From positions 110,758 through 174,757 of the forward strand of contig NZ_MBLO01000223.1 in the NCBI RefSeq assembly GCF_001854805.1: a stretch of 64,000 nucleotides of DNA, in the 5' to 3' direction. The notes under the pieces are model-generated. The model saw only the letters and a program-made list of their open reading frames with translations, had not been told where the DNA came from and searched no databases. The translations under genes and the position numbers were made by a program. Origin of the DNA: Pseudofrankia coriaricola. GTDB taxonomy: Bacteria; Actinomycetota; Actinomycetes; Frankiales; Frankiaceae. This document shows positions 7,053 to 41,375 of the stretch, one piece after another. The first letter of the stretch is position 1. The number at the start of each line of letters is the position of its first letter.

Positions 7053-9074
7053 GTGCTTGCTTACATCTACGCCGGGGTCGCGCTGGGCTCCATCTATGCG
7101 ATCTCGGTATCCGGAATCGTTGTCACATACGTATCGTCTGGCGTCCTCAACTTCGCATTCGGATCCTTAGCCTATTTTCTTGCGCGGTTCTACTACTACC
7201 TGAACACCGAACACGGGTGGAGCCAGATTCCGGCCGTCGTCGTCGCCGTCTTCCTGGCAGGGCCGGCCCTGGGGGCGTTCCTCTATCTCGCACTGTTCCG
7301 CCATCTGCGGCTGGCGAGTCAGCTAATCAAGATCGTGACCTGCATCGGCGTGTCGGTGGCCCTGCCGGCCCTCGCTCTGATGGTGTTCGGCAACGCCACG
7401 ATCGACTCGGCGCCGGGTCTGGCCTCGGAGCCGGTGCGCGTGTACAGAGTCTTCGGCGCCCCGCTCAACCTCAATGAGGTCATCGCGCTCGTCAGCGTCC
7501 TGGTCGTCGTCGTTCTCGGCACGCTGGTACTTCAGTTCACCGATGTCGGCCTGAGGGTGCGGGCCATGGTCGACAGCGAGGCGCTCACCTCGCTGTCGGG
7601 GGTGAGCCCGACGCGAATCTCGCTGTGCGTCTGGATGGTGACGACCACGCTGGCTGGCTTCGCCGGTGTCCTCGTCGCTCCGTCGAAGGGCCTCACGCCG
7701 GACGGCATGACCCAGTTGATGGCCGCGGCCTTCGCCGCGGTCGTCGCGGCCAGGCTTCGCAACCTGCCGGTGGCCGTCGGGGTCGCCATGGCGATGGGCA
7801 TCGTCACCGACGTGATCCAGAAGTACCTGCCGGCCAACAGCTCGCTGACGCACGCGATCCTCGTCAGCATCCCGACGTTCGTCATGGCCGCCTTCCTGCT
7901 GGCCTACATCCTGGCAAGCGGAAAGATCCACGATGGGTCCGCCACCGGAGGCGCGCTGGACCAGGCGATCCGGCCGACGGGAGGTGACTCCGCCAGCGCC
8001 TCGGCCGCAGCGGCGGTGGTCAAGAGCCGCACCGGGTGGTCGCTCTACATGCTCGGGCCGGTGATCATCATCGGGATCGTCGCGCTGCTCCCGCTCGTCC
8101 TCGAGGGCTACTGGCTGACCCTGCTCGCGGGCGGTCTCGCGTTCGGCGTGGTGTTCCTGTCGTTCACCGTCGTGGTCGGTGAGGGCGGCATGATCTGGCT
8201 CTGTCAGGCCGCCTTCGCCGGATGCGGGGCCGTGGTCACGGCGCAGTTCGCCACCAACCATGGCATGCACCCGTTGCTCGCGGCCCTGCTCGGCGCCGTG
8301 ATCGCGACACCGATCGGCGTCGTGGTGGGCTTGCTGACGATCCGCCTGGGCAACCTCTACGTCGCCCTGGTCTCCCTGACCGTGGGCATGCTGGCGGACA
8401 ACCTGATCTTCACCCGCCAGACCTTCTACCAGGACGGCGTCGGTGTGCCCGTGAGCCGGCCGGGCTTCGCGGTCGACGACCGGGCATTCGCGTATCTGAC
8501 GCTCGCCGTCTTCGTCATCATCGCCATCTTCGTGGTCAATTTGCGGCGCTCGACCACCGGTCAGGCACTTGCCGCCGTCCGGTACAGCGAGCCCGGGGCG
8601 CGGACCGTCGGGTTGAGCCTGCTCGGCATGAAGCTGCTGGTCTCGGCGATCAGCACCTTCATCGCGGCTGTGGGGGGCAGCCTCGTGGCGCTGAACTACC
8701 AGTCCGCGCTGCCCACCACCTATGCCACCTTTGGTGGGCTCGTCTGGCTTGCCGTCCTTGTGACCGTCGGACTGCGGTCGATCACGGCGGCGCTGCTGGC
8801 CGGTCTGATGTTCACCCTGACGCCCGGCATCTTCCAGACGTACCTGCCGACAAGCTGGGGCAATGTGCCGACCCTGCTTTTTGGCCTCGGTGCGGTCGGT
8901 CTGGCGATCGACCCCGACGGCGTGGTGGCGCAGTATGCCCGCCATATCCAAGCGCTCATCGGCAAGGTGGCCAGTCGACGAGGATCCACCGAGCCCGATC
9001 CGCCCGGCGGCGGCGACGGACCGACGACGGATACCTCCGGTGTCGCCCAACACGCACTGGGGGCAACCCGATGA
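7053..9074 (+). CDS. Fused LivH-LivM branched-chain-type ABC permease
   Basis: A 673-residue inner-membrane protein joining two permease halves that are usually separate. Residues 1 to about 300 match LivH (opening YAGVALGSIYAISVSGIVV, with the NFAFG motif). After a polar linker near 305-330, residues about 330-640 match LivM, with the LRRSTTGQALAAVRYSE loop that docks the ATPase. The C-terminal tail is polar. It starts with GTG after GAGG, and its stop overlaps the LivG start (ATGA), indicating translational coupling. It should take up a small amphipathic or carboxylated solute together with the next two ATPases. No binding-protein gene lies in the operon. Confidence 0.88.
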   Translation: MLAYIYAGVALGSIYAISVSGIVVTYVSSGVLNFAFGSLAYFLARFYYYLNTEHGWSQIPAVVVAVFLAGPALGAFLYLALFRHLRLASQLIKIVTCIGVSVALPALALMVFGNATIDSAPGLASEPVRVYRVFGAPLNLNEVIALVSVLVVVVLGTLVLQFTDVGLRVRAMVDSEALTSLSGVSPTRISLCVWMVTTTLAGFAGVLVAPSKGLTPDGMTQLMAAAFAAVVAARLRNLPVAVGVAMAMGIVTDVIQKYLPANSSLTHAILVSIPTFVMAAFLLAYILASGKIHDGSATGGALDQAIRPTGGDSASASAAAAVVKSRTGWSLYMLGPVIIIGIVALLPLVLEGYWLTLLAGGLAFGVVFLSFTVVVGEGGMIWLCQAAFAGCGAVVTAQFATNHGMHPLLAALLGAVIATPIGVVVGLLTIRLGNLYVALVSLTVGMLADNLIFTRQTFYQDGVGVPVSRPGFAVDDRAFAYLTLAVFVIIAIFVVNLRRSTTGQALAAVRYSEPGARTVGLSLLGMKLLVSAISTFIAAVGGSLVALNYQSALPTTYATFGGLVWLAVLVTVGLRSITAALLAGLMFTLTPGIFQTYLPTSWGNVPTLLFGLGAVGLAIDPDGVVAQYARHIQALIGKVASRRGSTEPDPPGGGDGPTTDTSGVAQHALGATR

Positions 9075-9922
9075 CAGCCACCACGCGCAGCCCGGCCCCC
9101 GTACTGGAATGCCGCGACGTGACGGTCAGGTTCGGCGCCGTGGTCGCGGTGAACTCCGTCTCGGTAGACGTCCCCCCGTCCACGATCATCGGACTGGTCG
9201 GGCCGAACGGGGCCGGCAAGAGCACGCTGTTCTCTGTGCTCTCCGGCCTGCACCGCCCGAACGCCGGCCGCGTGCGTTTCGAAGGCAGGGACATCACGGG
9301 CCTGCCGGCGGCCCGTCGGGCCCGGCTCGGCCTGGCCCGAACTTTCCAACGCCCCGAGGTGTTCGCCGGCCTGACCGTGCGCGAGCACATCCAGCTCGCC
9401 TACCGGGTCGCCACCCGGCGCCGGCGGATCTGGACCGACATGGTCACCGCCCGTGGGTTCCGCCCCGCCGACAGAGCCGAGACCGAGCAGGTCGCGCTCC
9501 TGCTCGACGCCTTGAACCTGGGCGATCTCGCCGATCGCCCGGTGGCCGGGCTGTCGCTGGGAATGCTGCGCCTCGTCGAGATCGCGCGCGCCCTCGCCAC
9601 GAACCCGAAGGTCCTCTTGCTCGACGAGCCGTCGTCCGGACTCGACGACCAGGAGACCGAGCAGGTCGTCCAGGTCTTCCGCATGGCGGTCGAACGCCAA
9701 GGGGTGTCGCTGTTGCTGGTGGAGCACGACGTGGCCATGGTGATGGGCCTGTGCAGCCGCATCCACGTGCTCGACTTCGGAACCAAGATCGGGGAGGGCA
9801 CCCCCGCGGAGATACGCAGCAACAAGGCGGTTCGTGCGGCCTACCTCGGCGACGAAGGAGCGATCGGCCGCGGGCCAGCCGAGATCACGGTCCAGCCCCA
9901 AGCGCCGGAGGTGGTGTCATGA
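9071..9922 (+). CDS. LivG-type ABC transporter ATPase
   Basis: A 283-residue nucleotide-binding subunit. Walker A is GPNGAGKS (44-51), the Q-loop region TFQRPEVF is at 91-98, the signature segment is LSLGMLRLVE (161-170), Walker B with the catalytic Glu is VLLLDEPSSG (181-190), and the switch His is His219. The signature lacks the usual GGQ, which is common for LivG proteins. The inserted arm between the Q-loop and signature (about 112-135) is also LivG-like. It overlaps the genes on both sides by 4 nt, so LivHM, LivG and LivF should be made in fixed ratio. Confidence 0.9.
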   Translation: MTATTRSPAPVLECRDVTVRFGAVVAVNSVSVDVPPSTIIGLVGPNGAGKSTLFSVLSGLHRPNAGRVRFEGRDITGLPAARRARLGLARTFQRPEVFAGLTVREHIQLAYRVATRRRRIWTDMVTARGFRPADRAETEQVALLLDALNLGDLADRPVAGLSLGMLRLVEIARALATNPKVLLLDEPSSGLDDQETEQVVQVFRMAVERQGVSLLLVEHDVAMVMGLCSRIHVLDFGTKIGEGTPAEIRSNKAVRAAYLGDEGAIGRGPAEITVQPQAPEVVS

Positions 9923-10653
9923 CCACGTCCTCAGCCTTGCTATCGGTCAAGGACCTACGGGTCACATACGGTCCCGCCCTGGCCTTGCAGAACGTCAGCA
10001 TCGACGTTCCGAACGGCTCGGCCCTGGCTGTGCTCGGCCCAAACGGCGCAGGCAAGAGCACGCTGGCCCGGGCGGTCAGTGGCCTGGTTCCGGCAGCCGC
10101 GGGGACTGTCGCGTTCGACGGTGTCGACATCGTCAAACGGCCGCCGCACCGCATCCGCCAGGGCGGTCTGGTGTACCTGCCCGAGGGTCGCGGCATCTTC
10201 CCGACGCTGTCCGTCCTCGAGAACCTGCGCCTCGCCTCCGGGTTGCTCCCCCGCTCGGCGCGCCGCGAGGCGATTGCTCGGGGGATGGAGATCTTCCCGC
10301 CTCTGGCGGCCCGGCGCGGCATGAAGGCCGGAATGCTCTCCGGCGGCGAGCAGCAGATGCTGTCGCTGTGCCGAGCTCTGATCGTCGAACCAAAGGTGAT
10401 CATCGCCGACGAGCTGTCCCTCGGATTGGCACCTCGAGCCGTGGAACTGGTCTTCGAATCACTCGACCGGCTCAAGCAGCAGGACGTCACGATCGTCATC
10501 ATCGAGCAGTTCGTGCACCGCGCATTGAAGTTCGCCGACCGTGCCGTACTGCTGTCCCGCGGGCAGGTCGCCTGGCAGGGTGCGAGCGTCGAGGCCAAGA
10601 ACGAGGTACTCGCGCGCTACCTCGGTGATGCCGCCACGGCCGACGTCGCGTAA
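9919..10653 (+). CDS. LivF-type ABC transporter ATPase
   Basis: The second ATPase of the transporter, 244 residues. It has Walker A GPNGAGKS (40-47), the LivF-type YLPEGRGIFPTLSV segment, the signature LSGGEQQ, Walker B ending in ADELSLGLAP and a switch-His region modified to IEQFVHRAL. The DE-LSLGLAP segment is typical of LivF proteins. The ATG follows GGAGGTGG inside the end of livG and overlaps its stop by 4 nt. It should pair with the LivG subunit on the fused permease. Confidence 0.9.
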   Translation: MTTSSALLSVKDLRVTYGPALALQNVSIDVPNGSALAVLGPNGAGKSTLARAVSGLVPAAAGTVAFDGVDIVKRPPHRIRQGGLVYLPEGRGIFPTLSVLENLRLASGLLPRSARREAIARGMEIFPPLAARRGMKAGMLSGGEQQMLSLCRALIVEPKVIIADELSLGLAPRAVELVFESLDRLKQQDVTIVIIEQFVHRALKFADRAVLLSRGQVAWQGASVEAKNEVLARYLGDAATADVA

Positions 10654-12108: not shown

Positions 12109-13359
12109 ATGGATGCAGATGATCTCATTCTCGTGAGTGTCGACGATCACGTAGTCGAGCCGGCGCACCTCTTCAAAGGGCGGTTACCGGCCAAGTACGC
12201 GGACAAGGCGCCGCTGTTCGTGCGTCGAGATGACGGCACGATGGCGTGGCGCTACGAGGGCCAGGAGATCCCGAACGTCGCACTCAACGCGGTCGCTGGC
12301 CGTCCCATGGACGAATACGGATGGGAACCCACGTCGATCGAGGAAATCCGGCCCGGCTGTTACGACATCCACGCGCGCGTGATGGACATGAACGCGAACG
12401 GGGTGCTCAGCTCGATGTGCTTTCCCTCGTTCCCGCGATTCTGCGGTCAGCTCTTTGCCGAGGCCGGCTCGGACCGCGAGCAGGCCGCGGCCATGGTACG
12501 CGCCTACAACGACTGGCACATCGACGAGTGGGCTGGAACCTACCCCGGCCGCATCGTTCCCCTGGCACTGCCCATGATGTGGGATGCGGTGGCGTCGGCC
12601 GAGGAAGTCCGCCGGGTCGCCCGCAAGGGCTGCCACGCGGTCACGTTCTCGTCGAACCCCTACGCCCTCGGCCTGCCGAGCATCTACACCGATTACTGGG
12701 ACCCGTTCTTCGCCGCCTGCGCCGACGAGGGCACCGTGGTGTGCATGCACCTGGGTTCGTCCTCAACGGTGCCCACGACGTCGCCCGAAGCGCCGATCGA
12801 GTGCATCTACTCGCTGTCGCCGGTGAACCTGATCGAAGCCGCGGCCGACCTCATCTGGAGCCCGCTGTTCCGGCGGTTCCCCACGCTCAAGGTTGCGCTC
12901 TCCGAGGGCGGGATCGGCTGGATCCCGTACTTCACCGAGCGGGTCGACTACATCTATCGACACACCAAGCACTGGTCGGGGATGGACCTGGGTGGCAAAT
13001 TGCCATCGGAAGTGTTCAACGAGCACGTCATCCTCTGCTTCATCGACGACTACGTCGGCGTCGAGAACCGCCACCACATGAACCTCGACAACATCACGTG
13101 GGAGTGTGACTACCCGCATTCGGACACGACCTGGCCGCACTCACCCGAACGCGTCGCGGACCAGCTGACCGGCCTGTCCGACGAGGAGATCAACAAGATC
13201 ACCCACCTGAACGCCCTGCGGCATTTCAGCTTCGACCCGTTCGCTCACATCCCGCGCGACCGCGCGACCGTAGGCGCACTGCGAACGGAGGCCGAACGCT
13301 GGGACGTCAGCATTCGGTCGACCAAGCACCTGCGGGCCGCCGCGGGGAGCGGGTCGTAG
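12109..13359 (+). CDS. Amidohydrolase-family (PF04909-like) metal-dependent hydrolase
   Basis: A 416-residue TIM-barrel hydrolase or decarboxylase of the amidohydrolase-2 group. The metal-binding DxH is at 12-14 (VDDHVVE), a second His at 214 (CMHLGSS), and the C-terminal acidic segment ECDYPHSDTTWPHS has Asp334 and His337. AGGAG precedes the ATG by about 8 nt. A paralogue lies at 31161-32417. The stop codon overlaps the GTG of the CoA-transferase gene by one base, so it belongs to the acyl-CoA cluster. In this family such enzymes often open rings or decarboxylate aromatic or cyclic acids; the reaction here is not known. Confidence 0.82.
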   Translation: MDADDLILVSVDDHVVEPAHLFKGRLPAKYADKAPLFVRRDDGTMAWRYEGQEIPNVALNAVAGRPMDEYGWEPTSIEEIRPGCYDIHARVMDMNANGVLSSMCFPSFPRFCGQLFAEAGSDREQAAAMVRAYNDWHIDEWAGTYPGRIVPLALPMMWDAVASAEEVRRVARKGCHAVTFSSNPYALGLPSIYTDYWDPFFAACADEGTVVCMHLGSSSTVPTTSPEAPIECIYSLSPVNLIEAAADLIWSPLFRRFPTLKVALSEGGIGWIPYFTERVDYIYRHTKHWSGMDLGGKLPSEVFNEHVILCFIDDYVGVENRHHMNLDNITWECDYPHSDTTWPHSPERVADQLTGLSDEEINKITHLNALRHFSFDPFAHIPRDRATVGALRTEAERWDVSIRSTKHLRAAAGSGS

Positions 13360-31160: not shown

Positions 31161-32417
31161 CTACGCCACCAGGGCTGGGGGCTCCGACGGGACGAAGTCG
31201 AAGACCCGCTCGGCGTTCCCGCGAATGATCTTGTGCTGTACGTCGGCGGGCAGGCCGGCGACGCACTCACGGACGCGGTCCAGTGAGTGCGGCCAGTTGG
31301 TCGCGGTGTGGGGGAAGTCGGTCTCCACCATGATGTTGTCGGCGCCGATCTCGTCGATGAGCTTCGACGTGATCGGCTCGTGGATGAAGCAGCCGAAGAT
31401 GTGCTCCCGGAAGATGTCGCTCGGCAGCGGGCCCTCCTTGGGCTCGGCCGTTCGGTTCAGCGTCTCCGTCCAGTCGGCGAGGGAGAGCACGGAAGGAATC
31501 CAGCCGACGCCGTTCTCCGACAGCACGAGCTTGAGGTTCGGGTAACGCTCGAAGTTGTCGCTCTCCAGCCAGTCGGTCAGGCTCGCCGAGCCCATGCGCG
31601 CACCGAGGAGCGAGGTGCTGGTGCCCGGCAGCATCTTGCGCTTCCGGTTCATCTCTTCGGTGCTGATGCCGGCCCGCTTGGCGACCTCACTGAGGTCGTT
31701 GTTCTTGATCGCATCCCGCATGCGCGTCGTCCAGTCGGCGCTGGAGTCCTCCTCGACCGCGCTCATGCCACTGCCGAGGTGCATGCACAGCGACAGGCGC
31801 GCGTCGTTCATCACCGAGAGGAGGGGATCCCAGTGCGGGTCGGTGACCGACGGGAAGCCGATCTTGTGTGGCGCCTGGCTGATCGAGAGCGCTCGGGCAC
31901 CCTTCTCGATGACCCGCTCCGCCTCGGCCGCGGCGAGGTCGCCGTCCCAGAAGGGCACCAGGCCCATGCCGATGAACCGGCCGGGGTAGGCGGCCACCCA
32001 CTCGTCGAGGTACCAGTCGTTGTAGGCCTGGATACAGAGGAGAGCCAGGTCCTTGTCCTTCGCGCGCTGGAACAGGCTTCCGGCGAAGCCGGCCATGTTG
32101 GGGAAGCACAACGCCGCCAGCTCGCGGTCGGTGTTCATGGCCTCGACGCGGGCCTTGGGGTCGTAGCACGCCGGCGCAACCTCGCTCCAGGACAGCGGAG
32201 TGAACATCTGCGGCCGGTTTTCCTTCGGCCAGATGGCCCCCCCGGTGCCCATGGCGTCCAGGGGAATCCGCCTGGTCTCCTCGAACAGCCACGACTCCCC
32301 GTGCTCGTCACTGACCCACCGGGGGCCGGTGTCGCGGTACTTGGCGGGCAGCCGATCCGTCCAGACGTTCGGCGGCTCGATCAGGTGGTCGTCCACCGAG
32401 ATGATCCACTCGTCCAC
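31161..32417 (-). CDS. Amidohydrolase-family (PF04909-like) metal-dependent hydrolase
   Basis: A 418-residue TIM-barrel enzyme paralogous to the one at 12109-13359. Metal motif VDDHLIEP (Asp9, His11), second His in CMHLGSGMS, and the C-terminal ETDFPHTATNWPHS. It carries an inserted helical segment of about 30 residues (near KNNDLSEVAKRAGISTEEM) absent from the paralogue. The GTG start has GGAG 7 nt upstream. Its promoter at 32462-32490 contains the palindrome shared with the transporter operon, which ties this enzyme and the VOC protein to the same TetR regulon. Confidence 0.83.
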   Translation of the reverse strand: MDEWIISVDDHLIEPPNVWTDRLPAKYRDTGPRWVSDEHGESWLFEETRRIPLDAMGTGGAIWPKENRPQMFTPLSWSEVAPACYDPKARVEAMNTDRELAALCFPNMAGFAGSLFQRAKDKDLALLCIQAYNDWYLDEWVAAYPGRFIGMGLVPFWDGDLAAAEAERVIEKGARALSISQAPHKIGFPSVTDPHWDPLLSVMNDARLSLCMHLGSGMSAVEEDSSADWTTRMRDAIKNNDLSEVAKRAGISTEEMNRKRKMLPGTSTSLLGARMGSASLTDWLESDNFERYPNLKLVLSENGVGWIPSVLSLADWTETLNRTAEPKEGPLPSDIFREHIFGCFIHEPITSKLIDEIGADNIMVETDFPHTATNWPHSLDRVRECVAGLPADVQHKIIRGNAERVFDFVPSEPPALVA

Positions 32418-33920: not shown

Positions 33921-35393
33921 ATGGCTGATCAGGGCAACAATGTCGAGGCCAAGAGGCGCCTTGGCCGATGGCGCGGCCCGGTCCGCCGGTCTCCGATCGG
34001 GAGCGGTACCCGGGGGCCGTGGTCTCGGCGGACGCGTGGCCGGCGGGCCGGCGCGCTCGCCATCGTGGTGACGGCCGCGGTGACCATGGCCGCCTGCGGC
34101 TCGTCGGGGAACGGCTCCTCAGCCTCGAGCGGGACGGCGTCGGCGGCCTCGGGTGCGCCTGTCGAGATCGGCATGCCTTTCCCATCCAACCTCCAGGCAT
34201 TAGCCAAGCTTCTGGGCGGCTCGCTGGGGTCGAGTGGCGCGGCGCCACCCACGGACGAGGAGACGAAGGCCTACTACCAGGCGCTCGCCGACTATGTGAA
34301 CAACCACGGCGGGTTGTTAGGTCGCAAGATCCAGCCGGTGTTCTACCCTCTCGACGCGACCAGGGCGGCGGGCGACTCGTCCGAGCAGGAGATGTGCACG
34401 CAGTTCACCCAGGACCATCACGTGTTCGCCGTGATGGACCTGCCGAACCACAGCGACACCATCGTCTCCTGCCTGCAGTCCGCGAACGTCATCGCCTTTG
34501 ACGCGGCCGGCGGAAGCCTCGCCGCGGACGACACCTACTTCCAACAGCGTCCGCTGTACGCCACGGCGGGCGCGCTCAGCCTCACCCGGGCGGCGGCTCT
34601 CCAGGTGAACGGCCTGTTCCAGGGCGGCTTCTTCGGGCAGAACCCCAAGATCGGCCTCGTCGGCTACAACACCGACCCGTTCACGCGCGCCATCGACGAG
34701 TCGCTGAAGCCGGCGCTCGCCAGCCACGGTCTCACGATCACCGACCAGCAGCTGGTGAAGCCCGTGTCGGGAGTCAACGACATCGGCCCCACCCAGCAGG
34801 CGATCAGCAGCGCCGTGCTTCGCTTCAAGCAGCAGGGAATCGACCACGTCCTCTTCCTGGACACGCAGGGCGGCACGCTACGGCCGTTCACCCAGGCCGC
34901 GTCGACCCAGAAGTACTTCCCGAAGCTGGGCTTCACGACCAATGAGCTGCCCGCGCAGCGGGCATACGCCGGGAACAAGACCGACCCGGACCAGGAAGTC
35001 CGATACGCGAACTCGATGGCGGTGGGTTGGTACCCGTCGGCCGACGCGGTCAACCCGCCGGTCAACGCCACGGGCGCCCTGTGCAACAAGATCATGGAGG
35101 CCTCGGGCGCCAGCCCGTCACAGGCCCAGTTCTTCTGGAACATGTGCGACCAGCTGCTGGTCTTCACGGCCGGGGTGAACGCGGGCGGAAAGCTGACGCC
35201 GCAGGACGCCATCACGGGACTCGGAAAGGCCAAGAACATCCCGAGCGCGGAGCTGCTCGGACCGCCCGACTACTCCGGCGGCCGCCGCGACGGGGTCACC
35301 ATCGCCAAGCTCCTGAAGTACACGCCCAGTTGCACGTGCTTCCAGTACAGCGGGGGCCCGCTACCAGCCAGCGCGTTCACGACAACCAGTTGA
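33921..35393 (+). CDS. Type I-fold ABC substrate-binding lipoprotein
   Basis: A 490-residue binding protein with a long basic n-region, one hydrophobic stretch and a lipobox (MAAC, Cys59), followed by a Ser/Gly/Ala tether. It belongs to the Liv-like type I fold but is larger and more divergent than the two other lipoproteins in the window. Extra segments such as CTQFTQDHHVFAVMDLPNH and several Cys in the C-terminal half (MCDQLL, SCTCF) are seen. The 58-residue leader is unusual and its start could be internal. First gene of the regulated operon; the fused permease and ATPases follow. Confidence 0.83.
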   Translation: MADQGNNVEAKRRLGRWRGPVRRSPIGSGTRGPWSRRTRGRRAGALAIVVTAAVTMAACGSSGNGSSASSGTASAASGAPVEIGMPFPSNLQALAKLLGGSLGSSGAAPPTDEETKAYYQALADYVNNHGGLLGRKIQPVFYPLDATRAAGDSSEQEMCTQFTQDHHVFAVMDLPNHSDTIVSCLQSANVIAFDAAGGSLAADDTYFQQRPLYATAGALSLTRAAALQVNGLFQGGFFGQNPKIGLVGYNTDPFTRAIDESLKPALASHGLTITDQQLVKPVSGVNDIGPTQQAISSAVLRFKQQGIDHVLFLDTQGGTLRPFTQAASTQKYFPKLGFTTNELPAQRAYAGNKTDPDQEVRYANSMAVGWYPSADAVNPPVNATGALCNKIMEASGASPSQAQFFWNMCDQLLVFTAGVNAGGKLTPQDAITGLGKAKNIPSAELLGPPDYSGGRRDGVTIAKLLKYTPSCTCFQYSGGPLPASAFTTTS

Positions 35394-35607: not shown

Positions 35608-37890
35608 ATGATGACGGGCGGCGACGCCGGCGTCGTGAGCGTGGCCCGCGCAGAGAGCGCCTCCGCCGACGCGGACACGGCGCTGGACGACGGCGGGCTC
35701 GACGTCATGTCGGGCGTCATCGCTCGGGTGCGGCAGCGGCGAGCCGAAGGAAGGCGCCTGCTCCTCACCGGAGCCAGCGGTGAGGCCGGGCAGATCCGGT
35801 CCCTGGGAGCCGACATTGCCGCTTCGGGCACCGGCTGGTACCTGCTGATCGCGCTGAGCCTGTTCGCGGCGCTGGATGAGGCGACGGCGTACCTGGTCAC
35901 CGCGCTCGGCCCTGACATCAGCAGTTCGCTGGGCGTCGATGCCAGCACCTACGCGATGCTGGCCACCCAGCGCCAGACCTTTGTCGGGCTGACGGCCCTG
36001 CAGTTCGCGGCGATCTTCTACAAGCGCAGTCAGCGCGTCATGATCTCCAAAAACCTGGGATTCCAGTACGGCCCGTCGCTGGTGCTGGGCAGCATCGTGA
36101 CGTGGGTGCCGGCGATGACGACCGTGATCGGCAGCTCGGGCGCCGGGGCCGCGGTGGTCTACTCCGCGCACCGCCCAATGATCATGGACTCCTATCCGCC
36201 CGCCGCCAGGCTGCGGGCGCTGAGCTTCCACCGCGGCGCCGGCGTCATCGGCGCGATTCTCGGCCCGGCCCTGGTCGCGATCCTGGCCGGGCCAGTGGGG
36301 CTGTCCTGGCGCGGCGTCCTGTTGGTGGCCGGAGTCGTCTTCCTCGCGGCGTCGCTGATTGGCCTGTGCCTTCGCGAGCCCGGCTACGGACGCCACGACT
36401 CCGACCAGGTGGCCGGTCTGATGCGGACGGACCAGTCCGGCCCGCCGCCGCGTCGGGAAGACGCCACCGAGCTGACGTTCTGGGAGGCGCTGCGACGGGT
36501 GTGGACGATCCGCACGGTGCGGCGGCTGCTGTCGGTGTGGGCCGTGCTGGGGGTGGCAGTCAACCCGGTCGTCACCTACCAGGGGTTCTGGCTGAAGGAG
36601 CAGTTCAGCCTGACCACCTCCGAGCGCGCGACCTTCTTCGCCGCGAGCTGGCTGTTGGCGCTGCCAGCGCTGTGGTACTACTCGCGTCGAGGGGAGAAGA
36701 TCTGGCGGCGGGAGCCGGCCCAGCTGGTCAGGATGGTCGCCTGGGCGTTGGTGTTCCTCGCGGGCGGTCTCGTCCTCGCCGTGATCCCCGTTCTGGGAGT
36801 GAGCCTCGCCGGCTTCTCCATCGTGTTCGCCTCTGAGGCCGTCGCCGTCGCGGCGCTGAGCCTGGTCATGATGTCGATCGTCCGGCCACGGGCCAGGTCG
36901 ATTGCCGTGTCGCTGGGGGCGGTCTACTTCGGGCTGGTGGGCGGGGAGGGCGGCACCATCCTCCTTGGCGACATCGAGTCCAGGTACTCGGCCGCCGCGG
37001 CGATCGCCACGCTGGTCGTGCCCGCGCTGGGCGCCGCCGCTCTGCTGGGGCGGGGCGCGAAGAGCGTGACCGGGGACCTGGACTCGGTCGTCAGCGAGAT
37101 CCTCGAGGACGAGGGGGTCCGCGATCTGGCCGTCAGCGGCCAGCCGGAACTGCCGCTGCTCGCGTGCCGCGGGATCGACTTCTCCTACGGTCAGCTCCAG
37201 GTGCTGTTCGGGGTCGACTTCACCGTGCGCGACGGCGAGATGCTGGCGCTGCTCGGCGTCAACGGCGCGGGGAAGTCGAGCCTGCTGAAGGTGATCTCCG
37301 GGCTCGGAATGCCCAGCGCCGGCTCCGTGCGGCTACGAGGCGACGACATCACCTTTGTCGACGCTGAGAAGCGGGTCAGCCGTGGGATCACACAGATACC
37401 GGGCGGTCGGGCCGTGTTCGGGCCGCTGACCGTGGCCGAAAACCTGCGGGGCCTGGGTTTCAGCCTGGGCCGGGACAAGAAACGCCTCGACGCGGCCATC
37501 GAAGAATGTTTCGAGATGTTCCCCAGGCTGGCCGAGCGACGTAACCAGCCGGCGCTGACGCTGTCCGGCGGCGAACAACAGATGCTGGCACTCTCGAAGG
37601 CGTTCATCCTGAAACCACGGCTGTTGCTGATCGACGAGCTGTCGCTCGGGCTGGCGCCTATCGTCGTCGACCGTCTGCTGGACATGGTTCGCCAGATCAA
37701 TGCGGCGGGCACCGCGGTGGTGCTGGTCGAACAGTCCATATCGCTCGCGCTGGGTGTCGTGAACCATGCGTACTTCATGGAGAAGGGCCAGGTCCGGTTC
37801 GACGGCTCATCGGCGGATCTGCTGGCCCGTGACGACCTGCTCCGCGCGGTGTTTCTCGGAGCGGCCTCTCAAGGCGGGAACGGCGCATGA
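35608..37890 (+). CDS. MFS-like membrane domain fused to LivF-type ATPase
   Basis: A 760-residue fusion. Residues about 70-490 hold some twelve hydrophobic segments resembling a major-facilitator transporter (including QRVMISKNLGFQYGPS and an internal gate-like VVYSAHRPMIMDSYPPAARLR loop). Residues about 515-755 are a complete LivF ATPase with Walker A GVNGAGKS (550-557), signature LSGGEQQ and Walker B LLLIDELSLGLAP (Asp676, Glu677). The reading frame is continuous with no internal start site of note. It overlaps the next gene by 4 nt (ATGA). The ATPase should pair with the LivG domain of the next protein; the job of the MFS-like part is unknown. Confidence 0.85.
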   Translation: MMTGGDAGVVSVARAESASADADTALDDGGLDVMSGVIARVRQRRAEGRRLLLTGASGEAGQIRSLGADIAASGTGWYLLIALSLFAALDEATAYLVTALGPDISSSLGVDASTYAMLATQRQTFVGLTALQFAAIFYKRSQRVMISKNLGFQYGPSLVLGSIVTWVPAMTTVIGSSGAGAAVVYSAHRPMIMDSYPPAARLRALSFHRGAGVIGAILGPALVAILAGPVGLSWRGVLLVAGVVFLAASLIGLCLREPGYGRHDSDQVAGLMRTDQSGPPPRREDATELTFWEALRRVWTIRTVRRLLSVWAVLGVAVNPVVTYQGFWLKEQFSLTTSERATFFAASWLLALPALWYYSRRGEKIWRREPAQLVRMVAWALVFLAGGLVLAVIPVLGVSLAGFSIVFASEAVAVAALSLVMMSIVRPRARSIAVSLGAVYFGLVGGEGGTILLGDIESRYSAAAAIATLVVPALGAAALLGRGAKSVTGDLDSVVSEILEDEGVRDLAVSGQPELPLLACRGIDFSYGQLQVLFGVDFTVRDGEMLALLGVNGAGKSSLLKVISGLGMPSAGSVRLRGDDITFVDAEKRVSRGITQIPGGRAVFGPLTVAENLRGLGFSLGRDKKRLDAAIEECFEMFPRLAERRNQPALTLSGGEQQMLALSKAFILKPRLLLIDELSLGLAPIVVDRLLDMVRQINAAGTAVVLVEQSISLALGVVNHAYFMEKGQVRFDGSSADLLARDDLLRAVFLGAASQGGNGA

Positions 37891-40754
37891 CATCGCTCTC
37901 TGCACTGCCGGACGTGGCGGTCCACGGGTTCCACGTGCCGCTGTCGGCCGTGGTGCTCGGCATGCTTTCCGGACTGACGTTCGGCCTCCTGGCCGTCGGG
38001 TTGGTCCTCATCTACCGGACGAGCCGCATCATCAACTTTGCGCACGGCCAGATGGGCGCCTTCGGGGTCGCGGTCCTGAGCCTGCTCACCCACAAATTCC
38101 ATATTCCCTACTACGTGGCGCTGATCCCCGGCCTGGCCGCCGGCGGCCTGGCCGCCGGGGCCACCGAGCTCGTGGTCATACGCCGTCTACGGAATACCAC
38201 TCCGGTCATGAGCATCGTCGCGACGCTGGGCGTCGGCGCGTTCCTGACCGAGGTTGCCTCGGTGGTGGACTCCAGCGCCTTCAGCGGGGTGACTCTGCCG
38301 AGCCCTCCCGGGATGCCGGTGATCAACCTGGGCGACCTGCGCATCGACGAGGCCTACACGGCCATGCTCATCCTCGGTCCGGCGACGGTGGCGGCGCTCA
38401 CCCTCTTCCTGCGCTACAGCCGCTTCGGGCTCGGTATCCGGTGCTCGTCCGCGAACCCGGAATCGGCCCGGCTGGCCGGCATTTCCGTACAGAACATGTC
38501 CAGCCTGTCCTGGGTCCTGGCCGGTGTCCTGTCCGCGCTGACCGCGCTGCTGGTGATTCCCGCCTCCGGTTTCTCCTCGTCCACCGACTTCGGGCCGCCG
38601 CTGTTGCTGCGGGCGCTCACCGCCGGCGTCATCGCCCGGATGTACAGCCTGCCGATCGCATTCGGCGCCGGCGTGCTCATCGGAGTCGTGCAGCAGGTCG
38701 TCCTGTTCAACTACCCCAACTCCGACGGTCTGCCCGACCTGGTGTTCTACGTTCTGATCCTCGTCGTTCTCCTGAGCCAGCGGAGCGCGCGCGGACGGGC
38801 GGAGGAGAAGGGTAGCTGGGCCTCGGTCGCGTCATGGAAGCCGCTTCCGGCCAGGGTCGCCCGGCTGCCCGAGGTCCGGGGCTTCCGCTGGGGACTTACC
38901 GGGATCGGCCTGGTGGTGGCACTGCTCCTCCCGCTGATGGTGTCGAACGCGAGCGCGGTCTCCCTCTCGACGGTGATCACGTATGCCATCGTGGGCGTGT
39001 CGGTCGGCATCGGAACGGGACTGAGCGGTCAGTTGAGCCTGGGCCAGTTCGCGGTGGCCGGCGTCGGCGCCGTCGTGTCGTTCAAACTCGACTCGAGCGT
39101 GCCGTTCCCGCTGGCCCTGGTCATCGCGGCCCTGGGCGGGGCCGCGATATCCCTGGTCATCGGGGTTCCCGCACTCCGACTCAAAGGCCTCATGCTGACC
39201 GTCACCACACTCGGCTTCGCTCTCATGGCGAACGGCTGGGGGCTGGAGCAGAACTGGGCCCTCGGCGGCGGGGTGCGGCCGCCGCGCCCCGCTGTGTTCG
39301 GGAAGGTCCTCGACACGGGCCGGTCCTACTATTACGTGGCGCTGGCGGCTTTCCTCATCGTCCTGCTGATCGCCTGGAACGTCCGCCGTCTCGCCTTTGG
39401 CCGGGCTCTGCTCGCGGTCAGGGACAACGAGAGCAACGCGCGCGGCTTCACCGTGCGGGTCACGCGGCTCAAGATCCAGGGGTTCGCGCTGGCCGGATTC
39501 ATCGCTGGCTTCGGCGGTGCCGTCTATGGACATCTGCTGAGCAGCGTCGACGCGTCGACGTTCTCGGTGCAGGCGAGCATCGACACCGTCGCCATGACGG
39601 TCATCGGTGGTGTCGGGCTTCTGATCGGACCGTTGATCGGGGCGTTCTACGTCATCGGCCTGCCACGCTTCCTCCCGTTGGACGCGGCGGGCATCGCCGC
39701 GACCGACCTCGGCTGGCTGATCCTCATCCTCTACCTTCCGGGCGGCATCGCGCAGGGGCTCGAACCGTTGCGGACGCGCTACGTCCGGTGGGCCGCGGCC
39801 CGGCACGGCCTCGACATCGACACCGAGGAACCGATCCTCTCCGAGAGCGCGCGCGCCGGGAGGCTGTCCGTGGTGGCGGAGCCTCGGCGGGTCCCGGTCA
39901 GGCCGGAGACCGCGCTGCTGGACGTCCGCGGCCTGCGGAAGAGCTTCGGGGGCATCGCCGCCGTGCGGGACGTGTCGCTCTCGGTCCACAAGGGAGAGGT
40001 GGTCGGCCTCATCGGCCCCAACGGTGCAGGCAAGACGACCACCTTCGAGCTGATCAGCGGATTCACCCGCCCCAACCAGGGCGAGGTCCTCTTCAACGGC
40101 GACGACGTGTCGTCGTTGAGCCCCGAGCGGCGGGGCCGGCTGGGACTCATCCGGTCCTTCCAGGACGCCGCGCTGTTCCCGACGCTCACGGTCACCGAGA
40201 CGGTGCGGCTGGCGTTCGAACCACGCCTGGCCACCAGCTTCTCCCTCTCGGTTCTCGGCCTGCCCGGGACGGAGAAGGAGAAGGCCCGGCGCGCGAGCGA
40301 CCTGGTGGACATCATGGGGCTCGGGTCCTATCGGGCCAAGCAGATCCAGGAGCTGTCGACCGGTACCCGGCGGATCACCGAGCTGGCCTGCATGATCGCC
40401 CTGGCGCCGACGCTGTTGCTGCTGGACGAGCCGTCCTCCGGGGTGGCCCAGCGGGAGACCGAGGCGCTCGGCGTCCTCCTCCGCCGGCTCAAGGACGAAC
40501 TGGACCTGACCATGCTGGTCATCGAGCACGACATCCCGCTCATCATGGGCATGGCTGACCGGGTCATCGTCATGGACGTCGGAACGGTCATCGCGGACGG
40601 ATCGCCGGACGAGGTCCAAGCCGATCCGCTGGTGATCGACGCCTATCTCGGGGCCAGCGCGACCGTGCTCCACCGCTCATCGTCGGTACCCCGGCCGGCT
40701 TCCGTCGGGACCGCGTCCGAGCAGCCCTCCACGGCGATCACCCCGACCGTCTAG
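37887..40754 (+). CDS. LivH-LivM-LivG single-chain ABC transporter
   Basis: A 955-residue protein joining both permease halves and one ATPase. Residues 1 to about 300 are LivH-like (INFAHGQMGAFG), about 340-640 LivM-like (GLSGQLSLGQFAVAGVGA, GRALLAVRDNESNARGF), and about 680-925 a LivG ATPase with Walker A GPNGAGKT (710-717), signature LSTGTRRITE and Walker B LLLLDEPSSG (Asp847, Glu848). The D-loop reads SSGVAQRE, an altered form. With the LivF domain of the preceding fusion it makes a complete importer from two polypeptides. No frameshift is needed to read through. Confidence 0.9.
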   Translation: MTSLSALPDVAVHGFHVPLSAVVLGMLSGLTFGLLAVGLVLIYRTSRIINFAHGQMGAFGVAVLSLLTHKFHIPYYVALIPGLAAGGLAAGATELVVIRRLRNTTPVMSIVATLGVGAFLTEVASVVDSSAFSGVTLPSPPGMPVINLGDLRIDEAYTAMLILGPATVAALTLFLRYSRFGLGIRCSSANPESARLAGISVQNMSSLSWVLAGVLSALTALLVIPASGFSSSTDFGPPLLLRALTAGVIARMYSLPIAFGAGVLIGVVQQVVLFNYPNSDGLPDLVFYVLILVVLLSQRSARGRAEEKGSWASVASWKPLPARVARLPEVRGFRWGLTGIGLVVALLLPLMVSNASAVSLSTVITYAIVGVSVGIGTGLSGQLSLGQFAVAGVGAVVSFKLDSSVPFPLALVIAALGGAAISLVIGVPALRLKGLMLTVTTLGFALMANGWGLEQNWALGGGVRPPRPAVFGKVLDTGRSYYYVALAAFLIVLLIAWNVRRLAFGRALLAVRDNESNARGFTVRVTRLKIQGFALAGFIAGFGGAVYGHLLSSVDASTFSVQASIDTVAMTVIGGVGLLIGPLIGAFYVIGLPRFLPLDAAGIAATDLGWLILILYLPGGIAQGLEPLRTRYVRWAAARHGLDIDTEEPILSESARAGRLSVVAEPRRVPVRPETALLDVRGLRKSFGGIAAVRDVSLSVHKGEVVGLIGPNGAGKTTTFELISGFTRPNQGEVLFNGDDVSSLSPERRGRLGLIRSFQDAALFPTLTVTETVRLAFEPRLATSFSLSVLGLPGTEKEKARRASDLVDIMGLGSYRAKQIQELSTGTRRITELACMIALAPTLLLLDEPSSGVAQRETEALGVLLRRLKDELDLTMLVIEHDIPLIMGMADRVIVMDVGTVIADGSPDEVQADPLVIDAYLGASATVLHRSSSVPRPASVGTASEQPSTAITPTV

Positions 40755-40838
40755 ATGAACACGAAACCCGACGAAAGGGCGTATCCGCCCGGTGGCGGCG
40801 CAGTGCGACAGGACCTCCAGGCGCGGGAGTGCGACGGC

Positions 40839-41375
40839 ATGACGGCACGACAGCAGACGGATATCCACTGGAATGTACGGCCGGTCATCAGGGCTTCCGC
40901 CCTGGCTCTCGCGCTGGCCGTGGCGGCCGGCGTCCTCACCGGCTGCCGTGTCACCGGTCTGGTCTTCACCGGAGGGCAGATCCGCATCACCAGCCCGGGC
41001 GCCTCGTCGACGGTGTCGGAGCTGCCCATGAAGATCACTTGGACCGCGGGGAGCCTGGCCCGGCCGGGAGACCAGTTCGCGGTATTCCTGGACCAGCCGA
41101 CCATCCGGCCGGGCCAGAACGTGCTGAAGCTCGTCCCGGAGTCCTGCCGGAACCTGCCCACGTGCTCCCGCGAGCAGTTCCTGAAGCAGGTGAAGGTGTG
41201 GATCACGAAAAGCCCGGCGCTGGTCCTGGACAGCATTCCGCGGGCGAACCCGATCGGGAACGACCGCGAGTACCACTCGGTGACCGTGGTGGTCGTGGAC
41301 AAGTCCCTGAAACGGGTCGGGGAGCAGTTCGCCTCGATCGACTTCATCTACCAACGAGGGGTCATTGACTTCTGA
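40839..41375 (+). CDS. Putative lipoprotein of unknown function
   Basis: A 178-residue protein with a signal peptide ending in the lipobox LTGC (Cys36 from this start) and a compact beta-rich outer part beginning QIRITSPGASSTVSELPMKI, which resembles the opening of an immunoglobulin-like domain. The ATG at 40839 has GGAG upstream; another in-frame ATG lies directly after the LivHMG stop but has no ribosome binding site. Last gene of the transporter operon; it may help the binding protein or sit in the envelope. No known family recognised. Confidence 0.6.
   Translation: MTARQQTDIHWNVRPVIRASALALALAVAAGVLTGCRVTGLVFTGGQIRITSPGASSTVSELPMKITWTAGSLARPGDQFAVFLDQPTIRPGQNVLKLVPESCRNLPTCSREQFLKQVKVWITKSPALVLDSIPRANPIGNDREYHSVTVVVVDKSLKRVGEQFASIDFIYQRGVIDF

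Follow-up and report, generated by a model that had tools for sequence, protein, structure and literature searches.

The window, meaning the whole stretch of 64,000 nucleotides analysed from Pseudofrankia coriaricola, contains two overlapping fusion genes that combine the subunits of a Liv-type importer with an MFS domain (Table 1). The preliminary description, made from the letters and their open reading frames, had proposed exactly these two fusions, and both frames proved open over 760 and 955 codons with the ATGA overlap between them. The 760-residue chain matches MFS_1 at residues 86-445 (Pfam, E 2.1e-18, 66.8 bits against a cut-off of 33.4) and ABC_tran at residues 535-677 (E 2e-26), and the 955-residue chain matches two BPD_transp_2 stretches followed by ABC_tran and BCA_ABC_TP_C, the latter corresponding to the LivG tail. 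In NCBIfam the top-scoring models were LivF and LivG, neither of which reached its equivalog cut-off; together with Pfam they bear out the proposed subunit assignment, and Walker A and B motifs were found in both ATPase domains, as had been claimed.

Table 1. Features of the MFS-LivF locus, in positions of the window
Feature	Position	Strand	Remarks
MFS-LivF fusion	35608..37890	+	760 aa; Pfam, NCBIfam, predicted fold
LivH-LivM-LivG fusion	37887..40754	+	955 aa; Pfam, NCBIfam
ATGA overlap of the two fusion genes	37887..37890	+	4 nt
MFS domain	35833..37062	+	about aa 76-485 of the 760-aa chain
Linker from MFS to LivF	37063..37155	+	about aa 486-516; D490 invariant
LivF ATPase domain	37156..37890	+	about aa 517-760; Walker A GVNGAGKS, signature LSGGEQQ, Walker B LLLIDE
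LivH permease domain	37887..38801	+	about aa 1-305, bounds set by hand
LivM permease domain	38874..39806	+	about aa 330-640, bounds set by hand
LivG ATPase domain	39909..40661	+	about aa 675-925; signature LSTGTRR
Substrate-binding protein (Peripla_BP_6)	33921..35393	+	490 aa; lipobox-like MAAC read by eye
Clade-specific lipoprotein ORF	40755..41375	+	lipobox LTGC; true start may be ATG at 40839

The gene set proposed at the outset holds for the two fusion genes and is incomplete, as a binding-protein gene (PF13458, E 1.7e-13) lies 215 bases upstream and a lipoprotein gene opens directly 3' of the LivG stop codon; both appear to be parts of the same system. Relatives of the binding protein adjoin many of the related loci; phmmer, consulted for a hint at the substrate, returned no PDB relative for it at E 0.01. 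A promoter and terminator scan gave results near chance. Elsewhere in the window, a second Liv-type operon (7053-10653) comprises a permease and two ABC_tran ORFs, and no MFS domain was detected in these three ORFs. Two Amidohydro_2 genes (12109-13359 and 31161-32417) were also observed, one close to each Liv-type operon.

That the fusion arose by a misassembly or a frame error uniting adjacent genes can be excluded. The frame runs from the MFS part into LivF with no stop codon or break, an identical arrangement occurs in a near relative (MFS part 91% identical) on an 8.19-Mb contig of a two-contig genome, and it recurs in 97 of 105 loci examined from many genomes, near-copies included. The other eight loci comprise seven with an MFS gene without LivF, one of them a contig-end fragment, and a single MFS-less locus taken for comparison.

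The MFS part was found in 10 of 58 genomes searched, and profile searches matched 45 of 393 genomes of the class (E 1e-25) and 20 of 396 genomes of a phylum sample (E 1e-38), the own genome being included in each case and standalone MFS proteins being part of these counts; a first scan of named genomes gave no match. Since at most four candidates per genome were scored in the class search, three in the phylum search and nine in the lipoprotein search described below, matches per genome are lower bounds and the absence of a match holds within those candidates. The carriers include Parafrankia, Frankia nepalensis, Frankia sp. AgB1.9, Yinghuangia and Embleya, several MAGs of Acidimicrobiia, Ilumatobacteraceae and Actinomycetes, and one MAG labelled Acidobacteria. 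Of 37 places from the phylum search, G527:C44 was left unfetched, and of the standalone MFS places from the class search four (L124-L127) were fetched. The match at G527:C44:122176-123606 bears two internal stops and is perhaps a decayed copy. Contig C268 of the own genome (L046), which is 4,987 bases long and contains undetermined bases, encodes another MFS-LivF fusion, and this one belongs to the A2 type. No description of an MFS-LivF fusion was found among the titles and abstract openings listed from the open literature, with subscription papers and TCDB outside the scope.

The division of the importer into chains varies among the 97 joined loci. The plain arrangement of the window, MFS-LivF with LivH-LivM-LivG, accounts for 58 of them, MFS-LivF-LivG with LivH-LivM for 23, and MFS-LivF with LivH-LivM and a separate LivG for five. 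The remainder consists of four loci cut at contig ends, where LivH alone was found, one (L185) for which no LivG turned up in the 13 kb retrieved, two whose chains are broken (L091 and L165, the latter with LivG split over two open frames at L165:10323-13817) and four that carry additional Liv genes (L099, L104, L116 and L190); apart from these cases the partner chains are complementary throughout. The initial description as a two-polypeptide importer thus fits the window and is incomplete for the family, in which the MFS-LivF-LivG form exists too, as in ORF 7948-10872 of L114. From this tally, complete systems have one MFS domain per importer, and the window locus is clearly recognizable as a predicted Liv-type (HAAT) ABC importer in two chains with one MFS domain for its Liv set.

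For sequence comparison, 10 near-identical domains among 103 MFS domains were dropped, leaving 87 fused and six standalone domains; the contig-end fragment L095 yielded no domain for this set. The alignments labelled A1-A3 omit L043 and L046, alignment A4 omits L077 and L080 (which hold X) and L095, alignment A5 omits L077, L079, L080, L090, L091, L093 and L095, and alignment A6 omits L028 and L097. In the LivF tree, all 87 MFS-joined LivFs fall into one clade of 90 (SH-aLRT 99, by a quick method without bootstrap), which also holds three of the 24 plain LivFs; because 21 of these 24 come from the window's own genome, the background of this tree is narrow. One of the three belongs to a single 1279-residue frame of the own genome (L045:5625-9461, contig C263), which reads LivH-LivM-LivF-LivG without an MFS domain. 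Pairwise MFS and LivF distances correlate with r 0.90 over the 87 systems, the best of 2000 permutations reaching 0.13, and joint divergence of the two domains is strongly indicated by this comparison. The LivF clade and this correlation fit one fusion followed by long joint divergence and a few losses, without amounting to proof of a single origin. In the MFS tree, for which two standalone proteins were chosen by hand as the root, the four remaining standalone ones lay among the fused domains. The LivG signature LSTGTRR is common to most fused systems; as a mark of MFS-joined systems it was rejected, as seven of 17 plain LivGs carry LSTGTRR or LSTGSRR.

The MFS-like character proposed for the membrane part was upheld by both the Pfam match and fold prediction. 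The MFS-LivF model has a mean pLDDT of 69.0 and a pTM of 0.65, with values below 50 at residues 140-154 and 156-185, and a manual count on the model gave 12 helical passes in two halves, of which TM3-TM4 are poorly modelled. Plain Foldseek returned ABC-type proteins and no MFS protein among its best 50 rows, and the MFS matches came from a second look with VIA-align, in which about residues 71-500 matched OxlT (Z 29.3) ahead of SPNS2 (Z 28.3), HnSpns being absent among the matches listed, and the LivF part matched 1ji0 (Z 27.2). The best PDB relative of the MFS family profile is HnSpns (E 9.9e-23). The membrane part is accordingly an MFS fold whose nearest relatives by sequence profile are the Spinster transporters (HnSpns, SPNS1, SPNS2; TC 2.A.1.49), with which it has in common an E-P-x-x-G motif after TM6. 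Outside its nearest relative, the fused domains are 18-36% identical to that of the window, and R143, W234, G261, R430 and D490 are nevertheless invariant in 87 of 87. The model of the LivH-LivM-LivG chain was poor (pLDDT 57.8, pTM 0.44) and was set aside.

Coupling in HnSpns involves a D41-R122 salt bridge, an E129-R42 pair and a motif-A relay of D87, R91 and D142 (PMC9440201). The equivalent positions in the window are T93 for D41, Y138 for D87, I174 for R122 and A181 for E129. The equivalents of D41, D87 and R122 are kept together in none of the 22 domains of clade A1, to which the window belongs, versus 60 of the 65 other fused domains when K is counted as R (59 of 65 in another alignment with R only); five of these 65 also lack part of the switch. 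The motif-A D is absent in 22 of 22 A1 domains, L110 having E, and present in 65 of 65 others; this column depends on gap placement, and the 14 columns displayed contain no D in any of the A1 sequences. The equivalents of R91 and D142 are retained in 87 and 86 of the 87 fused domains, respectively. Clade A2 carries K at the E129 position in 29 of its 35 rows, for which reason A2 coupling may differ from that of textbook Spinsters.

The preliminary description had regarded the MFS domain as a possible second transport path and had proposed a check for conserved proton-relay residues. Because those residues are missing from the window and kept in 60 of 65 domains elsewhere, a Spinster-type proton-driven version of that path is disfavoured for the window; in the other clades, where the switch residues are mostly present, the MFS domain probably still transports. 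The missing residues define HnSpns-type coupling only, and some other coupling could operate in A1, where D90 (TM1) and H188, each conserved in 22 of 22 domains, could provide an alternative protonation site.

The change in clade A1 is concentrated in the MFS part. With 1.32 changes per column (SH-aLRT 100), the A1 stem of the MFS tree is long compared with 0.14 in the LivF tree (SH-aLRT 93), whereas the A2 stem (34 rows) measures 0.30 in the former and 0.36 in the latter. Selection was compared in one pair, the window and the relative with 91% identity; it gave dN/dS values of 0.128 for the MFS domain, 0.093 for LivF and 0.04-0.10 for LivH, LivM and LivG, with higher values for the binding protein (0.17), the lipoprotein (0.33), the linker (0.67 over 31 codons) and the N-terminus (0.82). 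These figures indicate that the A1 MFS domain changed greatly on its stem while LivF did not, and that it is now under purifying selection.

A further novelty of clade A1 is the 206-residue lipoprotein. A profile grown from it matches 22 of 22 A1 loci and none of the 83 others; the gene keeps the same strand in all 22 and adjoins a core gene in 21, the exception being L163, where it lies 6.4 kb away. Of the 22 ORFs, 19 show a lipobox pattern, and its cysteine is invariant in the 20 aligned rows. Among 396 genomes the lipoprotein was found in at least 12 places in seven genomes, of which seven lie in loci already examined, one is the window's own, three in one genome adjoin further MFS-LivF genes, and one is a weak match with no MFS or Liv gene found nearby. 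In the own genome, where 150 candidates were scored, it occurs once. Searches of Pfam gave no match below E 0.025, with DUF4399 and Big_7 each appearing weakly in two of 20 members, and no match was obtained in the PDB at E 1 or in plasmids. Given that A1 is one clade, the lost switch and the acquired lipoprotein make up one unreplicated coincidence on the tree.

A role as an anchor had also been suggested in advance. As an inert anchor or assembly scaffold, the MFS domain would only keep LivF at the membrane, and the absence of switch residues in A1 would suit such a role. The three plain LivFs inside the MFS-joined clade, including the MFS-less chain of the own genome, favour it as well, since they suggest that the ABC core may do without the MFS part. 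Against inertness stand the purifying selection on the MFS domain, the five residues that are invariant despite wide divergence and the exclusive association of the lipoprotein with A1, and an inert role is accordingly disfavoured and considered improbable.

The neighbouring genes differ by clade, which suggests different substrates. Glycoside hydrolases adjoin 15 of 19 A2 loci of Frankiaceae and Yinghuangia, two of 12 other A2 loci, two of 30 B/C loci and none of 21 A1 loci (L028 being left out of the A1 counts). Among the same 21 A1 loci, mandelate-racemase-type enzymes are found at seven, PucR regulators at six, beta-lactamase-type hydrolases at five and AMP-binding enzymes at four. Two further neighbours were observed, neither with a Pfam match at E 1e-5: a protein that looks secreted by eye (L096:1394-2725 and related ORFs) at nine of 21 A1 loci, and an ORF (L178:17-2035) at 20 of 30 B/C loci that, judged by eye, resembles a binding protein anchored in the membrane by its own N-terminus.

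These neighbourhoods bear on a coupled exchange, in which the ABC part would import and the MFS domain would move a second compound, such as a product, an aglycone or a co-solute, by proton coupling in A2, B and C and by facilitated diffusion in A1. One GH3 enzyme beside an A2 locus has no signal peptide as judged by eye, so that a glycoside could be taken up whole and its aglycone exported. Such an exchange is further favoured by the glycoside hydrolases at most Frankiaceae and Yinghuangia A2 loci, by retention of the switch in nearly all non-A1 domains and by the Spinster lipid transporters being nearest by profile, but OxlT and DgoT, which are not lipid carriers, match too, and the A1 loci have neither glycoside hydrolase neighbours nor the switch. 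For these reasons it is regarded as possible but rather doubtful.

The preliminary description had also raised an energised exporter/importer hybrid, which may still apply. A more radical alternative is that LivF strokes, transmitted through the helix that leads from TM12 into the linker, drive the MFS domain and replace the proton motive force in A1. A helix is indeed predicted at residues 470-509 across this junction, D490 within it is invariant in all 87 fused domains, and the A1 domain has been retained and constrained although its proton switch is gone. However, the pLDDT is 56-66 from residue 491 on, and the linker is only loosely constrained in the one pair compared. We know of no precedent for an ATP-energised MFS domain, and this alternative is judged unlikely.

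Taken together, the tentatively preferred reading, held at somewhat below even odds, is that the A1 MFS domain is an accessory module acting with the lipoprotein and not a Spinster-type proton-driven carrier, a function that we infer from comparison. LivF and LivG would make up the ATPase pair and LivH and LivM the permease pair, the binding protein would hand over the solute, and LivHM would import it with ATP. The MFS domain, held through the helix from TM12 into the linker, would form a membrane-embedded module that captures substrate, acts as a gate or offers an ungated path, and the lipoprotein would accompany it on the outer face. The accessory module thus ranks first, followed by coupled exchange, then the scaffold and lastly the ATP-energised domain.

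With LivFGHM/HAAT importers the system has in common one each of LivH, LivM, LivG, LivF and a Peripla_BP_6 protein, and it differs from them in carrying the four subunits in two chains with an MFS domain joined to LivF. Compared with the Spinsters, its MFS domain is joined to an ABC ATPase, clade A1 lacks the D41, D87 and R122 equivalents, and the E129 position of the window is non-acidic. Another of the nearest known systems, Rv1410-LprG, includes a lipoprotein and has, to our knowledge, no ABC part. A precedent for joining an MFS domain to a domain of another kind is the family listed as sensor kinase-MFS fusions (TC 2.A.1.34; PMC3924187); the partner there is a kinase and not an ABC ATPase. 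What is new here, at the level of sequence comparison, is the loss of the switch residues in clade A1, the long MFS stem set against a short LivF stem and the lipoprotein confined to A1.

As a rule, ABC import and MFS transport are the work of distinct machines that draw on different sources of energy. In the present family each importer has one MFS domain built in, which has been kept across actinobacterial lineages, and clade A1, devoid of the proton switch, offers a natural experiment on whether an ABC ATPase can drive, gate or use an MFS domain, in which the role of a clade-specific lipoprotein is posed as well. It is a long shot that in A1 a Spinster-like carrier once driven by protons now serves an ABC importer as a component powered by ATP, with its own outer-face lipoprotein; if so, an ABC ATPase would here supply the energy for an MFS domain.
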